Shown: piece after piece, positions 4,491 to 38,483 of the stretch
Position numbering within the stretch: position 1 is the stretch's first letter
Layout: each line of letters begins with the position of its first letter
IMG/VR virus record: IMGVR_UViG_3300031825_000403
Span: 1 to 40,433 of that record
Length of the DNA: 40,433 nt
Origin: a virus
Strand: one strand, 5' to 3'
The notes under the pieces: generated by a model
Database searches by the model: none
The model's input: the letters and a program-made list of their open reading frames with translations, nothing else
Told to the model about the DNA's origin: nothing
Program-made: the position numbers and the translations under genes

Positions 4491-5901
4491 TACCGCAGAT
4501 CTCCACTGTTCCGCCGTAGGTCACGGCCGGAGTAACCGTCCCGCCGTAGGTCGGCACCACTACCTCGACACTCCCGCCGTAAGCCGCAGCCAGGCTGATG
4601 CCGCCACCATAGGCCACGGCCGCCGCCACCAGGCCGCCCCAAAGCTCGGCGATCTCGACCGACCCGCCGTAGCACACCACCGCGGCGATGATGAGGAGCT
4701 CGCCGGAGAGCGTGCCCGTGCCGAACACCTCGCCGGCCAGGAGCCGCGAGACGAGCAGCTCCGCCGCGGCCGTGCCCACCCCAGCCACCGCCCCCGCCAG
4801 GCGCCGCGCGATCTCCAACTCACCCGCCGCGCTGCCGGCGCCCGCGAGTGCGCCGGTGAGCAGTCGCCGTATCTCCAGCGAGCCGGCCACGTCGCCTGCA
4901 CCATCCGCGCTGCCGGCGAGGAGCCGCTCAATTCGGAGTGCCGCCTCCGTCGCGCCGAGGCCGGAGACATTTCCCGCGAGGAGCCGCCGTAGCTCCAACG
5001 CTCCATTGACCGCACCCACTCCCGCCGCCGCGCCTGCCAATAAGCGCCGGACCTCGGCCGCGCCTGTGACGCTGCCCTGCCCGGACAGAGCGCCCGCGAG
5101 GAGCCGGGAGACCTGCAGCGCTCCGGACGCGCCGCCTACCCCGTTGATGGTCGCAGCGAGGAACAGGGGCACTGCGGGCCAGCGATAGGCGCCCCCCGTG
5201 CGGACGCGGTATAACCCCCACGGGTCCGAGTAGGTGGCCCGTAACTCCCACGGTGAGAGCGCTCGGGTATAGAGCCGGGTGAGCTGGATCGCGCCCGCAA
5301 AGAGTTGCTGTATGCTGGTTCGCGCACCGATATTCAGCGTGTCGAGGCCCGCGTCCAGCGTCCTGCTCGTGCTGCTTGTCGCCACCCGCACGCCGTCCAC
5401 CCAGACCTCGTGCGCGGTGGGACCGCGGCTTACGAACGCAAAGACGTGCGGTGCTCCGTCCGCAATGGATGGCCCTGCTGCCGCGATTATATTCGTGCCG
5501 TAAAAAACGCGCACACCGTTGCCGGTCACGTTGTCGTACGGGGCGAAGAAAAACCGGTTGGTGCTGGTGTTGCCCTGGTTAATACCGAAAGAGCAGTGAT
5601 CCGTGGTGTAGGACGTCGCACTCGCGATCTGAATGAGCGTCCACTCGGAGCGCGACGACATCAGCGAGGCGGGCACAGCCCCAAACGTCGTTACTCCGTT
5701 GGTGCCGTTGTAGGTCTGCTCCGGCCCAGCAGCCCCGCTCGTCCAGGAGACGCCGGAGGTATTCGTGCCGGGATAGCGGCCCACCAGGTCCCGCGGATTG
5801 CCACCCCGCTCCCAGAAGGGGAGGTCGAACACCAGCTTGCGCGCCAACGGGTGCCGGGCCTGGATGACGGGTCGGCGCGGCTTGACGGCTAGGCGGCTCA
5901 T
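4483..5901 (-). CDS. tail fibre with LamG-like domain and tandem repeats
   Basis: A 472-residue fibre. Residues 70-230 look like a concanavalin/LamG jelly-roll domain, with HEVWVDGVRVA and FAGAIQLTRLYTRALSPWEL, the usual closing motif. Residues about 249-405 are seven 20-residue repeats beginning RLLAG-x(3)-G-x-G, preceded by a partial copy. Residues 410-469 are five YGG-(S/T)-V repeats. The LamG part probably binds a surface sugar or protein and the repeats form the shaft. The start ATG overlaps the stop of the upstream gene by 4 bases, with GAGAT close before it. The domain order, binding head at the N-terminus and repeats at the C-terminus, is unusual for a fibre. Confidence 0.7.
   Translation of the reverse strand: MSRLAVKPRRPVIQARHPLARKLVFDLPFWERGGNPRDLVGRYPGTNTSGVSWTSGAAGPEQTYNGTNGVTTFGAVPASLMSSRSEWTLIQIASATSYTTDHCSFGINQGNTSTNRFFFAPYDNVTGNGVRVFYGTNIIAAAGPSIADGAPHVFAFVSRGPTAHEVWVDGVRVATSSTSRTLDAGLDTLNIGARTSIQQLFAGAIQLTRLYTRALSPWELRATYSDPWGLYRVRTGGAYRWPAVPLFLAATINGVGGASGALQVSRLLAGALSGQGSVTGAAEVRRLLAGAAAGVGAVNGALELRRLLAGNVSGLGATEAALRIERLLAGSADGAGDVAGSLEIRRLLTGALAGAGSAAGELEIARRLAGAVAGVGTAAAELLVSRLLAGEVFGTGTLSGELLIIAAVVCYGGSVEIAELWGGLVAAAVAYGGGISLAAAYGGSVEVVVPTYGGTVTPAVTYGGTVEICGNE
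4687..5166 (-). repeat. 60-bp tandem repeats coding the fibre shaft
   Basis: Seven diverged in-frame units of 60 bp, plus a partial eighth, encode RLLAG-x(3)-G-x-G-x(3)-G-x-L-E-(I/V/L)-R. Divergence between copies is mostly in the variable positions, so the array is old or under selection. It is a coding repeat, not CRISPR. Confidence 0.8.
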
Positions 5902-7677: not shown

Positions 7678-9248
7678 GCCAGTTCTCCGGCTAGGGTGAT
7701 GGCCAGGAAGGCTAGGGTGTCGTCCGGGGTGGCCGGGGCGTCCACTTCGATCAACTGGTGCTGGGTTAAAGTCACCGGGTCCGGGAAGTTGATCACCCCC
7801 GCGTAGCTCCCGGAGGAGAAGGTAATCGTCCCGATCTCGGTCCGGCCCGTACCCAGGATGTTCTTGTAGATTTTGCATACCGCGGTAGCGGTAGCCTGGG
7901 TTTTCGACCTGGCGCTCGACTTCGCGCTGGTCATGCTTCCACCCCAGACAACATCCTGCGGCATAGACAAGCAGCCCAGCAGTTCCCCAGAGGTGAATGC
8001 CACGTCTGCCGGCCGGCCGTCGATGCCGAAGAAGATCGGCTGCCCCGTCCCTGCTGCGATCCGATCCGTGAACCATGCGAGGGGTACTCCATCCGTGTCG
8101 GCTACGGGGTCGGGCAAGCCCGTGAGTGTATTTCCATCCAGGTCGATGTCGCCTGTCATCGTCCCTCCCGAGAGCGGGAGCCGGGTGCCGACGCGCGTAT
8201 TGGTCCAACCCTGGTTTGCGGCGTGGTGATCGGCGGAGGGGTCGGAGACGTGGATGATCTGGTGGGTCCCCGCGTCGAGGGGGCCGGTCATCGCTTCCGA
8301 TCCCGAGAGCGGCAGGAACCCCGTGACAACATAGCTGCCCAGCGCCGTCAGCAGATAGCTGCGGGTGACGAGCGCCTGATCGGTAGTCGGATCGGCCGCA
8401 TTGACTACCTGATGCCCGCCGGCATCGAGGTTCCCGCCCATTACCGAGGTCCCGTCGATCTTCAGGAACGAGAGGGTGCCGCCGCCGCCCACGAGCGCGA
8501 CGACCCACTGCTTGTTCACGGCGTGGTCGTCCGCGGTGGGGTCCGGCACATCCGTCAGGTGGAACCCACCCATAGACTGATCGGCGGCGAAATCGATTGA
8601 TCCGTTCGAGCGAATGACGCCGGTGAGGCTCGGGATACTGAGGGCGGCGATGGCGGCCGTAATGGAGTCGGTCACCCAGCCGGCCGGAGCCGCGTCACCG
8701 TCGTCTACGGGGTCCGGGAGATCGGTGAGCGCAAACCCGGCCATCGACTGCGGGCCCGTGAAATCCCGGCTGCCGTCCCGCAGGATCGCCTCGTCGACCC
8801 GCAGCACTCCGACGTACTTCCCGGCCGGGTCCACCACGGAGGTGACCCCGCTGCCGTCGCAGACCAGGTTCGTGAGCGGATGATGGTCGGCGCTCGGCGG
8901 CGTGTTGATGGTCGTGTAATCGACGGAGAGCGCCCAGGTGTCCAGGTTGGTGACCGCCGCCTGGCTCGCGGCGGTCCGCGTCAGCTTCCACCAGGCGTAG
9001 TTCGTAGCGCTCGGGGTCGGCGCTGTGAGCGCCCGGGCCACCGAGATCGTATACGCCACGCCCTTGGTGAAGAAGGTCGTGCCGGCAGCCACTTCGGCCC
9101 CGAACCCCGCGGTCGGCGTAACCACCCCGCCGGCCATGATCCCGGACCCAATCGCGCCCTCGAAGGCCGCCTCCAGCACCGTGCGCAGCTGGGTGTCGCG
9201 GTCGAGAGAGTACGCCTTTTGATAGCTCGTGCCCTGCAGGGGAAGCAT
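7674..9248 (-). CDS. tail fibre protein with five shaft repeats
   Basis: A 524-residue fibre. ATG at 9248 follows GGAGTGATCCCGC. Residues about 1-150 look like an N-terminal attachment domain. Residues about 155-400 contain five copies of a unit ending in L-x(4)-DP-x(2)-D (examples: SMAGFALTDLPDP, SMGGFHLTDVPDP, TMTGDIDLDGNTLTGLPDP). This is the repeat type of trimeric fibre shafts in lambda- and P2-like phages. The C-terminal 120 residues are a beta-rich tip. It probably carries host recognition, with the FN3 protein downstream as an accessory. Confidence 0.8.
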   Translation of the reverse strand: MLPLQGTSYQKAYSLDRDTQLRTVLEAAFEGAIGSGIMAGGVVTPTAGFGAEVAAGTTFFTKGVAYTISVARALTAPTPSATNYAWWKLTRTAASQAAVTNLDTWALSVDYTTINTPPSADHHPLTNLVCDGSGVTSVVDPAGKYVGVLRVDEAILRDGSRDFTGPQSMAGFALTDLPDPVDDGDAAPAGWVTDSITAAIAALSIPSLTGVIRSNGSIDFAADQSMGGFHLTDVPDPTADDHAVNKQWVVALVGGGGTLSFLKIDGTSVMGGNLDAGGHQVVNAADPTTDQALVTRSYLLTALGSYVVTGFLPLSGSEAMTGPLDAGTHQIIHVSDPSADHHAANQGWTNTRVGTRLPLSGGTMTGDIDLDGNTLTGLPDPVADTDGVPLAWFTDRIAAGTGQPIFFGIDGRPADVAFTSGELLGCLSMPQDVVWGGSMTSAKSSARSKTQATATAVCKIYKNILGTGRTEIGTITFSSGSYAGVINFPDPVTLTQHQLIEVDAPATPDDTLAFLAITLAGELA

Positions 9249-29346: not shown

Positions 29347-29862
29347 TTATCCTCCCTTCCGATGGAACGGCGCGGTCACTCGCTCCTCCCAGGCGCTCGC
29401 CACCGGCGGCTTGACGAAGTCGTCCAGGGTGACCGGACACCCCGCGTTAACCCGGATCGTCTCGGCGTAGTAGATATCACGTCCATCCGGGCGCTTCCCT
29501 TGCCAGTAGGTACGGCTCACCAGCGGCGGGGAGGGGTTGGGCCGGCGCGGACCCCGCAGGACGCGGAAGAGGAAGGTAAGCTCACCCCTGCGCGTGGAGA
29601 CGCTGGCGGCTTCCTCGGTCTCTTCGTCCCACTGCTCCTCCGACTTTGCCTTCAGCGCGGCTTCGGCCTCTTCCCAGGCCCGTTCGATCTTGGCGGTGAT
29701 CCGGGTGAGCATACTGCTGGCGGTAGACGGCTCCACCTTCAACTCATGGGCGATCTGCCGGTACGTGAGGTCAAGGCACTGCAGCCGAAAGGCCTCCGTC
29801 TCTCGGGGTGAGAGCTTGGCCGCCTCGATGATGGGCTCAACCGATTTGCTATCCAGTCGCAT
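29347..29862 (-). CDS. sigma region-4-like late transcription regulator
   Basis: A 171-residue protein with LSPRETEAFRLQCLDLTYRQ then IAHELKVEPSTASSMLTRI at about residues 17-55, the helix-turn-helix of sigma-70 region 4 and LuxR-type proteins. The middle is an acidic coiled helix (EEAEAALKAKSEEQWDEETE), and the C-terminal half (FLFRVLRGPRRPNP...) is unrecognised. It lacks a visible region 2, so it is more likely a region-4-only activator than a full sigma factor. The gene heads the leftward region before lysis and late genes, and ATG at 29862 follows GGGAGGGACGAGG. Confidence 0.7.
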   Translation of the reverse strand: MRLDSKSVEPIIEAAKLSPRETEAFRLQCLDLTYRQIAHELKVEPSTASSMLTRITAKIERAWEEAEAALKAKSEEQWDEETEEAASVSTRRGELTFLFRVLRGPRRPNPSPPLVSRTYWQGKRPDGRDIYYAETIRVNAGCPVTLDDFVKPPVASAWEERVTAPFHRKGG

Positions 29863-30625: not shown

Positions 30626-30868
30626 CTATTCCGACGCTACTTCCCGGGGCTTGTCCCGGTCCCGCAAGCTCTGCCCGCACGGCTGGCACAGGCGCCCGGA
30701 TGGACCGATCCGCCGCACGTAAGCCAGGCTGCCCGGCTTCAGCGGCCGCTCGCAGTGTCCGCAGGCCCGCTCCTTACGCAGGACCCCCAGAGACCACCAA
30801 TGCTCGTCCTGGTGGAAGGTGATGCCGCAGGCGATCAACTCCGGCGTGTCCCAGACCGCTCGGTTCAC
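30626..30868 (-). CDS. zinc-ribbon protein, 80 aa
   Basis: The best start is GTG at 30868, which overlaps the stop of the upstream gene (GTGA) and follows AGGTGAA; an upstream TTG is in the same frame. Two CxxC pairs, Cys36/Cys39 (ACGHCERPL) and Cys61/Cys64 (LCQPCGQSL), are 25 residues apart, a zinc ribbon or treble clef. The N-terminal part holds ITFHQDEHWWSLGVL. The function is unknown. It is coupled to the winged-helix repeat protein. Confidence 0.65.
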   Translation of the reverse strand: MNRAVWDTPELIACGITFHQDEHWWSLGVLRKERACGHCERPLKPGSLAYVRRIGPSGRLCQPCGQSLRDRDKPREVASE

Positions 30869-32427
30869 TTCACCTGCTCCCAAATGCTCACCGCCTTCAG
30901 CAGCGCTTCCCGGTCGTCCAGGTCCGCGAGCTTGCCGGCCAGCTTGAGTCCGAGGGAGCGCACGTCATCCGCTACCAACACGGCGGGCGGTGCCGGTGCC
31001 TGCGCCGGAGAAGCGGGGGGATTTTCTACCGTATTTAAAGCCGCCGCTGCCGCTGGACGCTCCGCGGCGGGTGCCGTCCGTGTAGAGGCGGGGGGGTTCG
31101 ATGTTGGGGTTATCGACCGATCCCGGCGAAGGGAGCCGACCGCATTCCGCACCTGGTTTGCTGGCATACCGATCTGCTGCGACAGGATCGAGGAGTAAGA
31201 CTCGGGCAGGTTCCGCAGGTCCCAGCCGTTAGCCCGAAGCGCCTCTTGCACCCGCTGCGCCACGCTGCCGTCTCGCCGTCCGGCATTGTTGGGAGTAGCA
31301 CGCTGCCCGGTTTCGTCACGGATGATCCTCAGGGCACTCGCCACACTGTTCCGATTGACCTGCAGCACCTCGGAGATCTTCTTGACGCCACCAATTGGAA
31401 ACGGCTTGCCGAGGTCCCACTCCCACCGCTCCACCAACTCGCGAACCCGGTCCTTGGTGCTCATCTGGGCAATCACGCCGCCTGCCTGCTTTTGCTCGTG
31501 AATGCGGATACCCCGGGCCGCACGAAGGCGCCGAATGGCATCATGAACCGACTTTTCAGGGATCTGGAGTTGCCCTGCGATTTCCTGTACCAACTCCCGC
31601 TCGATGACCTGGGTGAGATCAATATCGAGGCGACCCACCCACGCCTCAACTCGCTGTTGAATGCTACCGTCGATGCGCTCGGGTCGCATGTCCCCGATCC
31701 GCCCCTCCGAGAAGCTCTGCCGCTGCTCCATCGTCTCCACGTAGTCTCGGACGGGATTGCTAACTGCCTCGATACCACTGACCACTGCCATGGTCGTTGT
31801 CTCCTGGGTCAGGGAGCCTTCCGGCTCGAAGGGGTCGGTGTGGGTCTGATTTGCCGGTAAACCAGAAGCATTTTGGGTAGCCAAAACAGGCGGGATGACG
31901 GTCGATGAACGGTCGATGACTTCGGCCGGCTTCGTGCCTGCAGGGGGCGACAGTGGGCGCTCCGCAGGCACGGAATGCAGGGCGACGACTACACCCGCCG
32001 CGGGCGCCTGTTGGGCTTCCCGCTCTGCCGGGGCGGTTTGGTTTCCTAAACTCTCCGGGCGGTTCAGGACGGTCGTCACGGCACGGAAGTTGCCGTCTTT
32101 GAGCCAGCGGGTTAACTCGCGCTGCAAGATGCTCGCCTGGAAGCCGGAGAGGCGCGAGGCGCGCACCAGATCCGGGACCGCCTCTTCCGTGAGGGTGAAG
32201 CCGGCCAGGAGTACCGCGAGCTTCCCGTGGTCGAGACGTCCGTCCACAATCCAGCGCTCGGGAGCGCCCGCGAGGTGGAAGTTGCGGTCCAACGCTTCCA
32301 GGGCCGACCGTTCCCCGGCCGCGAGCGGCATGCGCGCCCGGCTGGACAGGGAGGCGTTGCGCCACTGGCTGAAGCTCGCGAGCAGGCGGCGCGTCAGCGG
32401 GATGGAGGCGGAAGGGATCATATTCAC
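30865..32427 (-). CDS. protein with three tandem winged-helix-like repeats
   Basis: GTG at 32427 overlaps the previous stop and follows GGGAGGTG. The 520-residue protein has a helical N-terminal domain (residues 1-120), a long Pro/Ala-rich linker, and three related units at about 252-310, 322-378 and 386-440. Each contains an (S/Q)-V-x-x-A-(I/L)-x-x-(L/I)-R segment: EKSVHDAIRRLRAARG, RNSVASALRIIRDETG and ANQVRNAVGSLRRDRS, the pattern of a recognition helix and wing. The C-terminus is another linker and a short helix. It is the best candidate to bind the iteron dyad at 33249-33487, but no known initiator family is recognised. Confidence 0.65.
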   Translation of the reverse strand: MNMIPSASIPLTRRLLASFSQWRNASLSSRARMPLAAGERSALEALDRNFHLAGAPERWIVDGRLDHGKLAVLLAGFTLTEEAVPDLVRASRLSGFQASILQRELTRWLKDGNFRAVTTVLNRPESLGNQTAPAEREAQQAPAAGVVVALHSVPAERPLSPPAGTKPAEVIDRSSTVIPPVLATQNASGLPANQTHTDPFEPEGSLTQETTTMAVVSGIEAVSNPVRDYVETMEQRQSFSEGRIGDMRPERIDGSIQQRVEAWVGRLDIDLTQVIERELVQEIAGQLQIPEKSVHDAIRRLRAARGIRIHEQKQAGGVIAQMSTKDRVRELVERWEWDLGKPFPIGGVKKISEVLQVNRNSVASALRIIRDETGQRATPNNAGRRDGSVAQRVQEALRANGWDLRNLPESYSSILSQQIGMPANQVRNAVGSLRRDRSITPTSNPPASTRTAPAAERPAAAAALNTVENPPASPAQAPAPPAVLVADDVRSLGLKLAGKLADLDDREALLKAVSIWEQVK

Positions 32428-33224
32428 TTCGCACCTCCCGCGTAGGCTAGCGCGTCGTCCAGGGCAATCAGGAGATCCACCTTCTCGCTGCTGCAGAGGG
32501 TGAACCAGGCCTCCCGGTCGGCGCCGACGAAGACGCCCTCACTGATGCGGTATTCCGGGAAGCCGAGGGCCTGCCCCGCGAGGAAGACACGGTCCCGCAG
32601 CTCCGCATCGGCGACCACCGGGGTAGCCGCCTCTTTCACACTGACCGCCCAATCGAGAAGGGCCGTCGCCGCAGCCGTGACGGCTGCCAGGTCTTCTGCG
32701 TCCACTGCTTCACTGAGCGCGGTCTCCAGGCGGGTCCGGCGGCGGCTGGAGAGGTCGGCTTCGGGGATATCCGCGAGGATCTCGAATACCTGCCGGCAGG
32801 TCGCCTCCGCCACCTCTTCGGCAGCGGTCCCGCGACCCTTGGCCGGCTTCTCGCCGATCACGTGCCAGATACCGCGGGTAGTGGTCCAGCCGTGGTCTTC
32901 GATGCGGGTGCCGGTCTCAGCCAGCGCCGCATCTACCTGTGGGTGCAGATCGGCCAACCGCTGCGCGTACTTGGCGCGCATCTCCGGCGTCATGGTCGCC
33001 CGGTTCACCGCGAAGTAGCGCTCACCGCGGCCGAGGTTGTTCACCAGTGCCGCGACGGCCTGGTGATCGACCGGAGCGCTTGCCTGTTCAACCAACCGAG
33101 CGACTGACGCGACGTTGGGAAGGTTACGTTTTGGTAACATAGCCACTCCCCCTCTCTTAGAAGAAGGAGAGGTATTACTCTCTCTTTCTTCTTCTAGGAA
33201 CTCTCCGAGCCAAGCGTTTTTCAT
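32424..33224 (-). CDS. unknown helical protein, replication region (266 or 238 aa)
   Basis: Two in-frame starts are plausible: ATG at 33224 after GGAGGACCC, and ATG at 33140 after the strong site GGGGGAG with seven bases. The protein is helical and acidic (MTPEMRAKYAQRLADLHPQ, ETALSEAVDAEDLAAVTAAA) with a C-terminal LIALDDALAYAGGAK. It has no recognised domain. It lies between the primase and the winged-helix protein and overlaps the latter's GTG by 4 bases. A 37-base GA/CT-rich hairpin at 33159-33195 sits between the two starts. A replication accessory role is suggested by location. Confidence 0.6.
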   Translation of the reverse strand: MKNAWLGEFLEEERESNTSPSSKRGGVAMLPKRNLPNVASVARLVEQASAPVDHQAVAALVNNLGRGERYFAVNRATMTPEMRAKYAQRLADLHPQVDAALAETGTRIEDHGWTTTRGIWHVIGEKPAKGRGTAAEEVAEATCRQVFEILADIPEADLSSRRRTRLETALSEAVDAEDLAAVTAAATALLDWAVSVKEAATPVVADAELRDRVFLAGQALGFPEYRISEGVFVGADREAWFTLCSSEKVDLLIALDDALAYAGGAK

Positions 33225-33248: not shown

Positions 33249-33487
33249 CACCTGTCGAGTAACTGTCGAGTCAAGTGTCGAGTGAAAATCCGTGCCTAGC
33301 GCGTGGCTGCACAGGCACAAAATCCGGCATCTGTCGAGTGTCGAGTGACCTCGCGTATTTTTTGAAATTTCAAAATGTGTCGCCCCCCACTCGACACTCG
33401 ACACTTCGCCCGTTTTGTGCCTGAAGCGGGGTGCCCGTAGGCACGGGGGAGCGCTCGACACTTGACTCGACAGTTACTCGACAGGTG
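33249..33487. other. iteron dyad, candidate phage replication origin
   Basis: Five TGTCGAG repeats begin at 33253, 33264, 33276, 33332 and 33339. Five CTCGACA repeats begin at 33390, 33397, 33454, 33466 and 33477. The spacings mirror each other (11, 12, 56, 7 and 7, 57, 12, 11) about a centre at 33367.5-33368. The centre is the perfect AT-rich palindrome TTTTGAAATTTCAAAA at 33360-33375. The outer 34 bp of both arms are identical in inverted order. The right half lies in the last codons of the primase gene. This geometry fits an initiator-bound origin. Confidence 0.75.
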
Positions 33488-35694
33488 AGGTGAACTGTGA
33501 GTGAGCCCTTCTCACCGCGCTCCAGGCGGGCATAGCCCCGACTCTTGAGGAGTTGGGCGAGGAGCTGCGCGTCGTCACGGGTCTTGACGTTGGCGACCTT
33601 GTAACGCTGCATCTCCCGGGCGGTGCCGGTACCGCCGCGCCGCCGGAGCCAGGCGACTGCGAGTTGGATCTGCTTGTCCTGGCCGTCTGCGTGCAGCCAG
33701 TCATGGGCGCGGCGGGCGTGGGTCTTGAAGTAGGCGACCAAGGCGGCCGCGGCGAGGATGCTCTTCCGGTCTACCTGCTCGCTGGTGGTCTCCCCACAGG
33801 CCCACCGGCAGAGGTGGAGAATGAGCGCCAGCCGGGCGCAGTAGGTGCGGAACTTGGCCCACGGCGCGTACATCCGGGGCGCGAAGTCCGGGTGGTTCAT
33901 CTCGGCGTTGTGCCCGTCGATCCACTTGCGCCAGGTCTCCTTCCCGTCTGGGCTCATGCCCACCACGTGCGGGACCATCTCCGCTTCTTCGATCCCGGCC
34001 GGCTGGAGTTGGAGCAGGTAGTCGATGACCTGCTGGTACTCGCTGCGGGTCGCGTCGTCCACGCCGTTTTCGTCGTAGTCCTCTGGCCAGGGATCGGGGA
34101 AGCACCAGAGGATACGCGGGGTGAAGCCGTCCTCTTTGCCTTCCGTGGCGATCAGGTCCGAGAGGAGCGATGGCTGGATACCGCCGGTCACGCTGATGAA
34201 GGGCCGGGGGACCCAGAGCGGTTCTTTCTTGCCGACCCGGTTGACCATGATCGAGGTCGCGGACCAGCAAGAGAGCCACCAGGGCCGGTCTCCGCCCTGC
34301 CGGTAAGCGTCCATCGCCCCCACCCACCCGGCGAGTTCGTCCTGCTCGTACACCATCGAGCGCGGGTTGGCATGGAGCAGCTGCGCGAGCGCTTCCCGGG
34401 TCGCGTCGTTCGCGATGATCTGGGACATGACCGGCTCGACCGGCTGCTCGGGGGGCGCCGCGAAGTTGGCCTTATTCTTCCGGGCGTTGTCCCGGATCAC
34501 CGCCAGCTCCCGGTTATAGGCGTCCAGATCGGCCGCGTACTGTTTCTTGCGCTCTTTGAATTCGGCCTGGAGCCGGGACTGGTATTTCTTCAGCGGCTCC
34601 ATGGCCGCGCGCATCGCGGGCGTCTTGGCGGAGCCGGCCACCCCGACGACGGCCGTCCAGAGGATCGGCGGCTCCACCCAGCCCGGCTTAATGGCTATGG
34701 CGTAACTGTTGCCGATGGCGGTGCCGGCGACCGTGAGGACGAAGAGGGCGGGGAGATCCACCGGGCAGTTGACCGCTTCAGCCACCGCCTCGCAGAAGGT
34801 GCGCAGGGTGAAGGGCAGCACCTGGACCGGGAACTCCAGGACTTCGGCGTCTGGGTGGAACTCCTCTTCCTCCGCACTCTCCCCGGCTGCGGCCACTCCC
34901 GGCTGCCAGAGGGGTGCGGCTTCCGCCAGTGCTTCGAGCTGCTCCCGCGTATGTCCCAGGGCCTGCCAGTCGGAGAAGTCCGCATGTTCCTCGGTCAATC
35001 CGGGCAGGGGGACAATCCGGACGCTGGCCGCGAGCCCATGGCACAGAGAAGCGCCGAGGGCGCAGTGGTCCCGGCCCACCTGATCGTTGTCGGGAACGAA
35101 GCGGACGTCCGCGCCCTTCAGGGACTCGGCGTGTGCAGCGAGGAACTTCCCGGCACCCATCGGGCTGCTGGTGGCGTTCAGTCCCCACCGCCGAGCGTTG
35201 TCCGCATCCTTCTCGCCTTCAAAGACCCAGATCGGTTCTTCCCGCTCGATGGCCGCGAGGATCTCCGGCAAGTGGTAGAGGATGGCCGCGCGCCCTGCCA
35301 GGCCGGCGACCCACTTCCCATTTTCCCAGCGGTCCTGGCGGAAGCTCTTACCGGAGGGGGTGAGCAGCCGGCGCACCCGCATGTAATTGCCGCCCTGCGC
35401 GTCCTGGTAGATGTAGCTGCAGACGTGGTCCGTCCCGCCACTGCTCCGCAGGGGCCGCTCCGGTCGGCTGCCTTCCGGGAAGAGCTTGCTCATCTCCATC
35501 CCGGCGGCGCGCGCCAGGTCTTCCGCCGGGGCATTGCAGCCAAAGCACTTGAGGAGGACCTTGCCGTCTTCGCCTTCCGAGATCCGAAAGGAACCCGTCC
35601 TTTCGGTATGGCTGGGGCAGCAAGCCCACCAGCCATCCTTCTTCTTCTTGGCTCCCTGGAAGAAGGAGAGCGCGTAGTCGATAGGGGAGGTCAA
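33370..35694 (-). CDS. DNA primase (CHC2 + TOPRIM) fused to DUF3987-type NTPase
   Basis: The start is TTG at 35694, overlapping the previous stop and following AGGAGGTTC; upstream in-frame ATGs are in the previous gene. Of 774 residues, the first 60 are a CHC2 zinc finger (CCPSHTERTGSF, with Cys26, His29, Cys50 and Cys53), then a TOPRIM core with FEGEKDADNARRWG and VPDNDQVGRDH. The second half is a DUF3987-type ATPase with GVAGSAKTPAM as P-loop-like motif and MVYEQDELAGW as Walker B. A primase fused to a helicase-like NTPase is common in phages and makes primers at forks. Its last 40 codons overlap the right arm of the iteron dyad. Confidence 0.85.
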   Translation of the reverse strand: MTSPIDYALSFFQGAKKKKDGWWACCPSHTERTGSFRISEGEDGKVLLKCFGCNAPAEDLARAAGMEMSKLFPEGSRPERPLRSSGGTDHVCSYIYQDAQGGNYMRVRRLLTPSGKSFRQDRWENGKWVAGLAGRAAILYHLPEILAAIEREEPIWVFEGEKDADNARRWGLNATSSPMGAGKFLAAHAESLKGADVRFVPDNDQVGRDHCALGASLCHGLAASVRIVPLPGLTEEHADFSDWQALGHTREQLEALAEAAPLWQPGVAAAGESAEEEEFHPDAEVLEFPVQVLPFTLRTFCEAVAEAVNCPVDLPALFVLTVAGTAIGNSYAIAIKPGWVEPPILWTAVVGVAGSAKTPAMRAAMEPLKKYQSRLQAEFKERKKQYAADLDAYNRELAVIRDNARKNKANFAAPPEQPVEPVMSQIIANDATREALAQLLHANPRSMVYEQDELAGWVGAMDAYRQGGDRPWWLSCWSATSIMVNRVGKKEPLWVPRPFISVTGGIQPSLLSDLIATEGKEDGFTPRILWCFPDPWPEDYDENGVDDATRSEYQQVIDYLLQLQPAGIEEAEMVPHVVGMSPDGKETWRKWIDGHNAEMNHPDFAPRMYAPWAKFRTYCARLALILHLCRWACGETTSEQVDRKSILAAAALVAYFKTHARRAHDWLHADGQDKQIQLAVAWLRRRGGTGTAREMQRYKVANVKTRDDAQLLAQLLKSRGYARLERGEKGSLTVHLTCRVTVESSVERSPVPTGTPLQAQNGRSVECRVGGDTF

Positions 35695-36080
35695 AGAACC
35701 TCCTCCAGCGGCTTCTCGCCCGGCATGTCCCGCCACCAACTGAAGAGCCGTACCACGTCGCCCGGAAGCCCGTCCGGCGCACCGGGGCTTTCCCGGAACG
35801 TGACGGAGAAACTGTGCCCTGCCGCGCACAGGAGGTCCACGTCCGCCTTCCGTCGCCAGGCGTGGGTTGAACTGAGGGAGAGGTGCGGGGAGCTGCAGAC
35901 CGGGCAGCGCAGGAAGGCGCCGCGGTCGAAGCAGCGCGCGGCGAGCAGGTCCACCGGCAGCCCGGCCGGGAAGCCGCTCTCTCGTTCCCGCAGCGCCGCC
36001 TGTAGGCGCTCCACTTCCGCGCGTAAGCGCTGCACCTCGGACCTCTCGACCGGTAAGGTATCTGGCATGGTCTCGTGCAT
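35691..36080 (-). CDS. coiled-coil zinc protein, 129 aa
   Basis: ATG at 36080 has GGGAGG ten bases upstream. Residues 10-35 are a short coiled coil (RSEVQRLRAEVERLQAALRE); then a metal-binding part with Cys59/Cys62 (RCPVCSSPHL) and Cys85-x(3)-His89 (LLCAAGHS). The end, EKPLEEVL, overlaps the primase start. It may assist primase or bind DNA. The function is not known. Confidence 0.6.
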   Translation of the reverse strand: MHETMPDTLPVERSEVQRLRAEVERLQAALRERESGFPAGLPVDLLAARCFDRGAFLRCPVCSSPHLSLSSTHAWRRKADVDLLCAAGHSFSVTFRESPGAPDGLPGDVVRLFSWWRDMPGEKPLEEVL

Positions 36081-36465: not shown

Positions 36466-37077
36466 CTAGAGGGCGAAGGAGAGGTCGGAGCGACCGACCA
36501 GGGAGCGCTCGATGGACGACAGGGAGAGGCGCTCGATGCGCCGGGCCACCGGTAGCGGCATGTTGATGCGGCGGGCGGCTTGCGGGAGGGGGAGCTCCAG
36601 CCAGAACAACCCCAACAGGAGTTCCCGGTGGCGTTCGGGGAGATCGGCCAGCGCTGCATGCACGGCGTTGAAGAGGGCTTGCTCTTCGTCCGTGGCGGTG
36701 ACCGTGTCGGCGGGGTTCGGCTCGTCGCTGGCGAGCAGTTCCTCCAGCCGCGCGTCACCGTCACCGACCGGGAGGTCCAGGGAGCAGACCGAGATACCGG
36801 CCGGAGGCTTCTGGCGCCTGTACTCTCGGAGGAGTGCCTTCTCCACCAGGTAACCGGTGTAGCCCGCCAGGCTGGCGCCCCGAGCGGGGTCCCAGTTCTC
36901 CATGGCACGGATCACGGCCACCAGCGCCGCCTCTTCATAGCCTGCGGCGTCATGGTGAGCCGGCTTCCCGAAGCGCCGGGCCATCCGGAGCGCGAGCCGG
37001 ATCAATTCGCGCTCGTCCGTAACCAACGGCCCGGTCGGCCGATTAACGTTGTCGGGGGAGAGGTTTCGGGTTATCAT
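36466..37077 (-). CDS. phage sigma-70 family factor
   Basis: ATG at 37077 has GGAGG eight bases upstream; two earlier in-frame ATGs lack it. Of 203 residues, residues about 30-85 form sigma region 2 (LIRLALRMARRFGKPAHHDA, VIRAMENWDPARGASLAGYT, LLREYRRQ) and about 145-195 region 4 (LPERHRELLLGLFWLELPLP, AARRINMPLPVARRIERLSL). It therefore can bind RNA polymerase core and both promoter boxes. It belongs to the leftward early operon. It probably directs transcription of the replication genes downstream of the terminator. A structured leader sits just before it. Confidence 0.85.
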   Translation of the reverse strand: MITRNLSPDNVNRPTGPLVTDERELIRLALRMARRFGKPAHHDAAGYEEAALVAVIRAMENWDPARGASLAGYTGYLVEKALLREYRRQKPPAGISVCSLDLPVGDGDARLEELLASDEPNPADTVTATDEEQALFNAVHAALADLPERHRELLLGLFWLELPLPQAARRINMPLPVARRIERLSLSSIERSLVGRSDLSFAL

Positions 37078-37098
37078 TCTTACTGCCTCCGCAAAAAG

Positions 37099-37153
37099 AA
37101 GCCGCATCACTTCGCAATCAATGGGCCTGCCAGCCCGCGAGGGGATGCGGCTT
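37099..37153 (-). promoter_or_regulatory. terminator-like leader hairpin before the sigma gene
   Basis: A perfect 10-bp stem (AAGCCGCATC/GATGCGGCTT) encloses a loop of 35 bases with its own small stem (GGGC/GCCC). On the minus strand it is followed by CTTTTTGC and then the ribosome site GGAGG. It resembles an attenuator. A further stem, GCCGGC/GCCGGC, lies upstream at about 37163-37181. Confidence 0.65.
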
Positions 37154-37439: not shown

Positions 37440-37615
37440 TAGGCGACCTTCTCTTCAGCCGCAGCGGTCAGCGCGCGCCGGTCGGCGGCGTGTCCCTTCA
37501 TGAACTCGTGCAGGGCCTTCCCGAAGATTTCCGGGTCGGGCTGGTTCATCTCGATCACGGTCACCGTGCAGGTGGACCGGGGCTTCTTGGGGGTGGGGGA
37601 AGAGGTGGCGTCCAT
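37439..37615 (-). CDS. small early protein, 58 aa
   Basis: ATG at 37615 begins one base after the stop of the HTH gene; a longer frame would overlap it. The protein has a Ser/Pro/Lys start (MDATSSPTPKKPRSTCT) and a helix (DPEIFGKALHEFMKGHAADR). No family is recognised. The GGAGG site within the preceding gene lies about 13 bases upstream. Confidence 0.5.
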   Translation of the reverse strand: MDATSSPTPKKPRSTCTVTVIEMNQPDPEIFGKALHEFMKGHAADRRALTAAAEEKVA

Positions 37616-37616
37616 T

Positions 37617-37820
37617 TCAGGCGACCGCCTCCAAGCGCGACTCGACCAGATCCCGCTTCCAATTCCGCAGGGTTGTATCGGACACACCGAGCTTTGCAGC
37701 AGCGGCTTCCGGGGTATCGGTGCTGGCTACAGCCTCCCGAACAAGCTGATCGATTGGCTTCTTGTGGAGCTTTTCGAGCGTCCGCATCAGGGAGCTCTTC
37801 TTGGGAGTGGACTGTTCCAT
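37617..37820 (-). CDS. early HTH regulator, 67 aa
   Basis: ATG at 37820 follows GAGGTG; the longer frame to 37859 would begin in the operator region. Residues 38-60 (TPEAAAAKLGVSDTTLRNWK) form a helix-turn-helix of the transposase/terminase-small-like or Cro-like kind, preceded by a helix (SLMRTLEKLHKKPIDQLVRE). It is the first gene behind the TATAAT promoter and could be a Cro-like autoregulator. Family type is uncertain. Confidence 0.65.
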   Translation of the reverse strand: MEQSTPKKSSLMRTLEKLHKKPIDQLVREAVASTDTPEAAAAKLGVSDTTLRNWKRDLVESRLEAVA

Positions 37821-37837
37821 TACCACCTCGCTGCCGT

Positions 37838-37914
37838 GCTGTTCACTAGTTACCAGCATTATAGACGAGTCCGCTGTTCACTAGTTACTAATATTTGCGC
37901 AGAAGTTGGTAACT
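37838..37914. promoter_or_regulatory. operators and divergent promoters for repressor and early operon
   Basis: Two exact copies of GCTGTTCACTAGTTAC lie at 37838-37853 and 37873-37888, 35 bp apart; a half-site, GTTGGTAAC, is at 37905-37913. On the minus strand a perfect TATAAT (37858-37863) faces the early operon, with a weak -35 in the second copy. On the plus strand TAATAT at 37889-37894 could serve the repressor. Each copy is a partly symmetric site centred on ACTAGT. Confidence 0.7.
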
Positions 37915-37943
37915 TTTTTCCAGAAGCTCCGTTAGGGGATATC

Positions 37944-38483
37944 GTGACTACGGGGTGCCTGTTAATGCCAGAGAGACGGACCGAGACGTTCGGGGACGTG
38001 ATCCGCGAACTTCAAGGGAGCCTTACACAGCGGAAGTTCGCCGATCTTGCGGCGGGCGTTAGCAACGCGTACGTCAACGATTGGCTCCAAAACCGTGTTC
38101 CGCGCCTGAAGACGCTTGTCCAGGTGGCTGACGCGCTAGAGTCCGCAGGGCGGCTTACCCCTTCGCAGCGTGCTCGTCTCTTTACGGCGGCTGGATACGT
38201 TGATCCAAGGCCGGCATCCACGGGCGCAGAAGCCGGCTTGGGGCCGGTCGATCTCAAGAGCTTTTTCACTAACCGGATCGGTAACGAATCCCCGTTCGAC
38301 CGCCTCCTCCGCTTATTCGGCGAGCTGGTCAAGTGGGCCGAGGAGCAGCAGCTCCCGAAGCCGGTACTCGACAGCGGCTTCTTCGGCGGGTGGGACACGC
38401 TGACCGACGCCGACGTGGACGACTACATCGAGCGGTTGCGGGACGAGGCGATCCGGGCGGGGAAGCGACGGGAGCGAGGGTAG
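37944..38483 (+). CDS. phage repressor, lambda-type HTH
   Basis: GTG at 37944 follows AGGGGA; an in-frame ATG at 37965 is the other choice. The 179-residue protein has a Cro/CI-type HTH at about residues 28-58 (RKFADLAAGVSNAYVNDWLQ, then RLKTLVQVADALESAG). The C-terminal part (DLKSFFTNRIGNESPFDRLL, YIERLRDEAIRAGKRRERG) is helical and lacks the Ser/Lys pair of LexA-like self-cleavage, so induction must differ from lambda. The promoter and operator region lies just upstream and drives the early operon the other way, which supports its identity as lysogeny repressor. Confidence 0.75.
   Translation: MTTGCLLMPERRTETFGDVIRELQGSLTQRKFADLAAGVSNAYVNDWLQNRVPRLKTLVQVADALESAGRLTPSQRARLFTAAGYVDPRPASTGAEAGLGPVDLKSFFTNRIGNESPFDRLLRLFGELVKWAEEQQLPKPVLDSGFFGGWDTLTDADVDDYIERLRDEAIRAGKRRERG

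Follow-up and report, generated by a model that had tools for sequence, protein, structure and literature searches.

The DNA described here is a virus contig (IMG/VR record IMGVR_UViG_3300031825_000403), which was analyzed over its full length of 40,433 bp (the window) and encodes a portal, a head protease, a major head protein and a small terminase. A gene for a primase-helicase containing a DUF3987 domain occupies positions 33370–35829 on the minus strand, and the next gene (32424–33224, minus strand, assigned to no family) starts with an ATG at 33224 preceded by GGAGG. A mirror-symmetric dyad of heptamer repeats, a predicted replication origin on the evidence of its symmetry and repeat counts, spans 33249–33487, ending just before the start of that next gene. 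The primase frame terminates with a TGA at 33370–33372, which is the center of the dyad, so that the dyad straddles the stop codon and its gene-proximal half is coding.

Each arm of the dyad consists of outer iterons, a spacer and inner iterons, followed by the center and the same elements in reverse order. On the plus strand, TGTCGAG begins at 33253, 33264 and 33276 (outer iterons, 33253–33282) and at 33332 and 33339 (inner iterons, 33332–33345), with the left spacer at 33290–33328. On the minus strand, read as CTCGACA, the inner copies begin at 33390 and 33397 (33390–33403) and the outer copies at 33454, 33466 and 33477 (33454–33483), with the right spacer at 33408–33446. Start-to-start spacings are 11, 12, 56 and 7 in the left arm and 7, 57, 12 and 11 in the right arm. 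The three outer iteron pairs are symmetric about 33368 and the two inner pairs about 33367.5, which is also the center of TTTTGAAATTTCAAAA (33360–33375), a perfect palindrome of 16 bp. The outermost 34 bases of the arms (33249–33282 and 33454–33487) are exact inverted copies. The repeat count and a symmetry scan thus bore out a first-pass annotation of the sequence, which had described five copies facing five with mirrored spacings, a common center that includes the palindrome, identical arm ends and a dyad that is half coding.

Exact copies of TGTCGAG or CTCGACA were counted across the record, as that annotation had proposed. Ten of the 19 fall within 231 bp (33253–33483), five on each strand, and the 40,433 bp contain no second cluster. 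From the density in the remainder of the window, 0.05 copies are expected per 231 bp (Poisson probability of ten, ∼4e-20). When the whole window was scanned for rigid symmetry with a half-width of 130, the top-scoring center was 33368, with 67 of 130 positions paired (mean 35.4, SD 5.65). Gapped comparison of the two halves gave a score of 58, against a maximum of 11 for shuffled sequences. With the iterons masked, the two spacers still gave an inverted alignment scoring 15, against 8 at most for shuffled sequences, and the mirroring therefore goes beyond the iterons. The center is 80% A+T over 20 bp (33360–33379) and 65% over 40 bp, most relatives being more AT-rich, and the palindrome is a likely melting site.

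For the adjacent protein, Pfam identified DUF3987 (PF13148; E = 1.9e-73, 248.2 bits, cut-off 27) and a CHC2 zinc ribbon and nothing beyond these, neither DUF927 nor a D5/Primase_Cterm domain; PHROGs matches were to phage primase and helicase families. The protein comprises the zinc ribbon, a TOPRIM-type primase region, DUF3987 and a predicted C-terminal winged helix. Its start codon is uncertain, because the open frame extends upstream beyond the annotated GTG. An AlphaFold2 model of residues 320–819, built on 24 sequences (mean predicted local distance difference test [pLDDT] score 80.7), contains an ATPase-like core followed by helix, strand, helix, helix and hairpin, which together form a winged helix at residues ∼714–782 (pLDDT ∼80; encoded at 33484–33690, minus strand), a candidate for binding the iterons. 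The last residues (∼783–819; 33373–33483, minus strand) are encoded within the dyad and predicted to be disordered (pLDDT 32–43). Since residue 782 is encoded at 33484–33486, the folded part of the modeled protein stops at the boundary of the dyad (33487). When the helicase part was compared with solved structures, a sequence search found no relative, and Foldseek against the PDB returned MCM, ORC, ComM, papillomavirus E1 and the primase-helicase of SaPI5, every match being weak (E ≥ 2.5e-3). These matches hint at an AAA+ replicative helicase but fall short of proof. According to a published prediction, DUF3987 is a mobile-element helicase, and proteins of this kind recognize origins through winged helices at their C termini (PMC5862659).

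DUF3987 genes were gathered from plasmids, phages, viral contigs and genomes of several bacterial phyla (mostly 20%–30% identity) and reduced below 70% identity, leaving 52 non-redundant loci. An opposed cluster was defined as one 7-mer occurring two or more times on each strand inside a span of 350 bp and was counted at five or more copies. Exact 7-mer arrays were present at the 3′ end of the DUF3987 gene in 23 of the 52 loci and at the 5′ end in none (Fisher p = 1e-8); the background was three hits among 443 other 1.4-kb windows and one among 1040 dinucleotide-shuffled sequences. When 9-mers with one mismatch were accepted, arrays were found at 32/52 3′ ends and 4/52 5′ ends. About a dozen different iteron sequences occupy the 3′ end across the survey. 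They include TGACAGAAC in a Streptomyces plasmid, AAGTGTCGC, AGTGGACTC and AAAGTAGAC in cyanobacterial plasmids whose arrays are wholly coding, CCTTCAAAA in a Bartonella plasmid, ACTGAAA in a Bacteroides plasmid, and AACTGCA, ACCCGACA and others, also outside a group of Bacillota phages that share GACAAAA. Like TGTCGAG, 17 of the 23 motifs include GAC or GTC, if AAGTAGA is counted as its extended version, AAGTAGACA; ten of these 17 come from the Bacillota group. Differing repeats at one place point to a function that was kept while its sequence changed. Mirrored spacers were also found at loci L042, L046, L090 and L021.

Several surveyed loci had further features. At L021 (395–735) lies the most perfect mirror array seen, with three plus three TTTTGTCAC-type iterons per arm and mirrored spacers. 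Three cyanobacterial plasmids carry the entire opposed array inside the DUF3987 gene (L009, 6094–6467; L017, 4522–4838; L019, 6314–6650), where it encodes repetitive peptides (VDS, STL) and is followed by extra domains; a search with the cyanobacterial alignment yielded no viral relatives. In an Acinetobacter plasmid (L102, 3446–9193), facing GACAAAA repeats end the DUF3987 gene, which adjoins ISAba1 and aminoglycoside-resistance genes. The Rhodovastum plasmid RHOAph (L007) encodes ParA and DUF3987 along with a fused prohead protease/major capsid protein and resembles a phage-plasmid or a remnant of one. DUF3987 scored above the family cut-off in only 7 of 299 sampled Bacillota genomes.

As a control, ten sister loci with primases homologous to those of the Bacillota DUF3987 proteins were examined, and none had an opposed cluster with five copies or more at any position; the three that were typed all encode a D5_N/DUF5906 helicase instead of DUF3987. 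Arrays accompany DUF3987 genes of differing primase type, whether TOPRIM (the window), AEP-type or without any fused primase (L008, the Streptomyces NBC_00562 plasmid, and L016), so that the array follows the helicase and winged-helix part and not the type of primase. Scans were also run in the reverse direction, from DNA alone. The mirrored TTTTGTC pair occurred at eight places in 2.9 million viral contigs, six of which abut a DUF3987 3′ end, some of these contigs being among the loci already surveyed. A looser scan with TGTCGAG gave 23 places, mostly three-copy matches of the kind that chance produces in GC-rich DNA. The three best clusters all follow primase-helicase genes: L130 (eight copies) and L134 (nine copies), which encode divergent DUF3987-like domains with a winged helix (hhalign 94% for L130; for L134, hmmsearch over a very limited search space), and L120 (four copies; 7900–8004), where two plus two lie at the 3′ end of a gene for a D5-type helicase, a different helicase family. 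The iteron of the window is therefore also used beside other replication genes. In a Salinibacter phage (L011), an opposed array of CTAACACAG lies at 7699–7893, downstream of a TOPRIM-DUF5906 primase gene, and the layout is thus not exclusive to DUF3987.

The dyad is probably the replication origin of the phage, recognized by the adjacent DUF3987 primase-helicase; this judgment, made from sequence, includes the full mechanism that follows. The winged helix at the C terminus would bind the TGTCGAG iterons, five per arm, and binding by the adjacent protein is likely. The mirrored arms would place two ATPase oligomers face to face across the AT-rich palindrome (33360–33375). These would melt the center, load on both strands and move apart, and the fused TOPRIM primase would prime both forks, giving a bidirectional, theta-type start. 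The melting site, two-ring loading and bidirectionality are candidate features; published analogues of this mode of replication exist (PMC6092414; PMC7581432). Origin function, which the first-pass annotation had proposed, is well supported because unrelated replicons carry the same architecture at the 3′ end of their genes for this helicase family. Its description as a candidate new origin type is too strong, since the layout has already been published for phage-inducible chromosomal islands (PICIs) and the staphylococcal pathogenicity islands (SaPIs) (PMC6092414).

Several observations weigh against the origin reading. Of the 52 DUF3987 loci, between 20 and 29 lacked an array, depending on which of two methods was used, and the array-less loci include E. 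coli YfjI (L035) and a Sulfitobacter plasmid (L103). The annotation had named absence of the dyad from related phages as grounds for rejecting an origin; among the relatives, all distant, an array was present in 44% (exact) to 62% (one mismatch) and missing from the remainder. The loci are not independent, in that ten of the 23 with arrays form the Bacillota-phage group with the common GACAAAA; the other 13 fall outside it and their iterons differ. At L021 the array is upstream of the DUF3987 gene, the D5 control loci were not redundancy-reduced, and the fold matches to known helicases are all weak, as given above. Cumulative GC skew, a further check that had been suggested, reaches its minimum at 31789, 1.6 kb from the dyad (p = 0.058), which is weakly consistent with an origin here.

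A separate DNA-binding protein might instead use the iterons as operators or partition sites, for regulation or segregation; we consider this unlikely. Iterons often have a second, regulatory role, and the window encodes two candidate proteins: that at 30865, with winged-helix-like repeats and a weak GntR-type match (E = 0.005), and a repressor-like protein (37500–38483) with a helix-turn-helix match. The phage collection contains no detectable relative of the 30865 protein, and the arrays recur beside DUF3987 genes whose neighbors are unrelated, the common feature being the 3′ end of the helicase gene. The first-pass annotation had favored the 30865 protein as the binder; because it is the DUF3987-winged-helix protein that travels with the arrays, that assignment is improbable, and the dyad can be explained without the 30865 protein.

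The dyad could also act as an RNA or single-stranded DNA hairpin, formed between the primase gene and the next gene and serving in attenuation, termination or processing. Its 239 bases do fold as a single stem (−154.6 kcal/mol, z = −17), and L042 and L008 behave similarly. However, opposed iterons also occur without a common stem (L012, z = −1.9; L080, z = −1.5; L107 and L016, fewer than 10% cross-half pairs), and because several arrays do not fold as one stem, the feature shared by all is the opposed iterons. A hairpin could form without repeated identical iterons in each arm, the cyanobacterial arrays lie wholly within a gene, and the dyad matches no Rfam family and lacks a terminator-like run of T, all of which make a hairpin role quite doubtful. 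A recombination or telomere-resolution site, with the palindrome cut by a protelomerase or integrase, is very improbable: large inverted symmetry around a central palindrome does occur at such sites, but here the perfect palindrome is only 16 bp, tandem iterons are not typical of them, and scans for protein families, run on the main genes and on part of the small open reading frames, revealed no integrase or protelomerase. Coincidence, or a protein-level repeat in the primase tail, can practically be dismissed even though half of the dyad is coding, given the chance probability above, the position of the other half outside the gene, the different peptides encoded by opposite-strand copies and the predicted disorder of the tail.

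No close relatives turned up in the collections searched when the primase, the major head protein and the proteins at 30865 and 32424 served as queries, an exact search of viral contigs with the inner dyad gave no match, and there are no direct terminal repeats at the ends of the record. A purine/pyrimidine-rich inverted repeat with terminator-like matches on both strands lies at 33155–33199, near the start of the 32424 gene. Two sigma-factor-like proteins are encoded (36466–37110 and 29347–29862, both minus strand), and CCGCCGTAG is present in four direct copies at 4511–4992, within a tail-fiber-like gene.

A broader proposal, on which our own judgment is evenly balanced, is that DUF3987 proteins add one more class, spanning phyla, to the self-loading initiator helicases, and that their own genes end in mirror-array origins. 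Selection or fold-back copying would keep iterons and spacers mirrored for symmetric two-ring loading, and gene and origin would travel as a cassette across phages and plasmids. DUF3987 is still listed as of unknown function in Pfam, and an origin at the 3′ end of the gene would give the family a testable one. Origins in uncultured phages and plasmids could then be located from sequence, as compact gene-plus-origin cassettes, and a layout described as confined to phage-inducible islands would extend to phages and plasmids. The class is widespread and apparently unreported; a link between DUF3987 and iterons was not found in the literature searched, to which most subscription papers did not belong, and its novelty is provisional.

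Among known systems, the phage lambda origin resembles the dyad in having iterons within the coding sequence of its initiator gene, O, but has four of them and no mirrored dyad, and O, which lacks helicase function, brings in DnaB via P. The alpha protein of P4, with ori and crr, is likewise an initiator that combines primase and helicase, has its DNA-binding part at the C terminus and acts with iterons, but in P4 there are two far-apart sites and the helicase belongs to another family. At the origins of SV40 T-antigen and papillomavirus E1, inverted initiator sites seat two helicase hexamers head to head, a functional analogy; there the DNA-binding domain is N-terminal and the viruses are eukaryotic, and the protein described here is only a weak fold match to E1. 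SaPI Rep has itself been likened to T-antigen and E1 (PMC7581432). Cch2 of the staphylococcal cassette chromosome mec (SCCmec) is also a helicase of the self-loading type, whose C-terminal domain binds repeats just past its own gene, but it is D5-type and its three iterons are direct, and that system lacks demonstrated replication in vivo (PMC7581432).

The closest parallel is the pri-rep-ori arrangement of PICIs and SaPIs, in which an initiator with helicase function, often fused to a primase, is followed immediately 3′ of its gene by an origin whose two iteron sets flank an AT-rich region (PMC6092414); the comparison rests on this published description rather than on SaPI sequences. The helicase is DUF3987 here, whereas it is DUF927 in SaPIbov1 and of the D5/Primase_Cterm type in SaPI5, and the primase is TOPRIM-type here and AEP there. 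In the window the gene-proximal arm is coding and the inter-iteron spacers are mirrored. The layout is carried here by a tailed phage and by plasmids instead of satellites. The record is not itself a PICI, which is a satellite that lacks its own structural gene set and sits at a PICI att site, since its portal, head protease, major head protein and small terminase genes are present. The predicted origin is a variant of the PICI/SaPI kind, built on a different helicase family.
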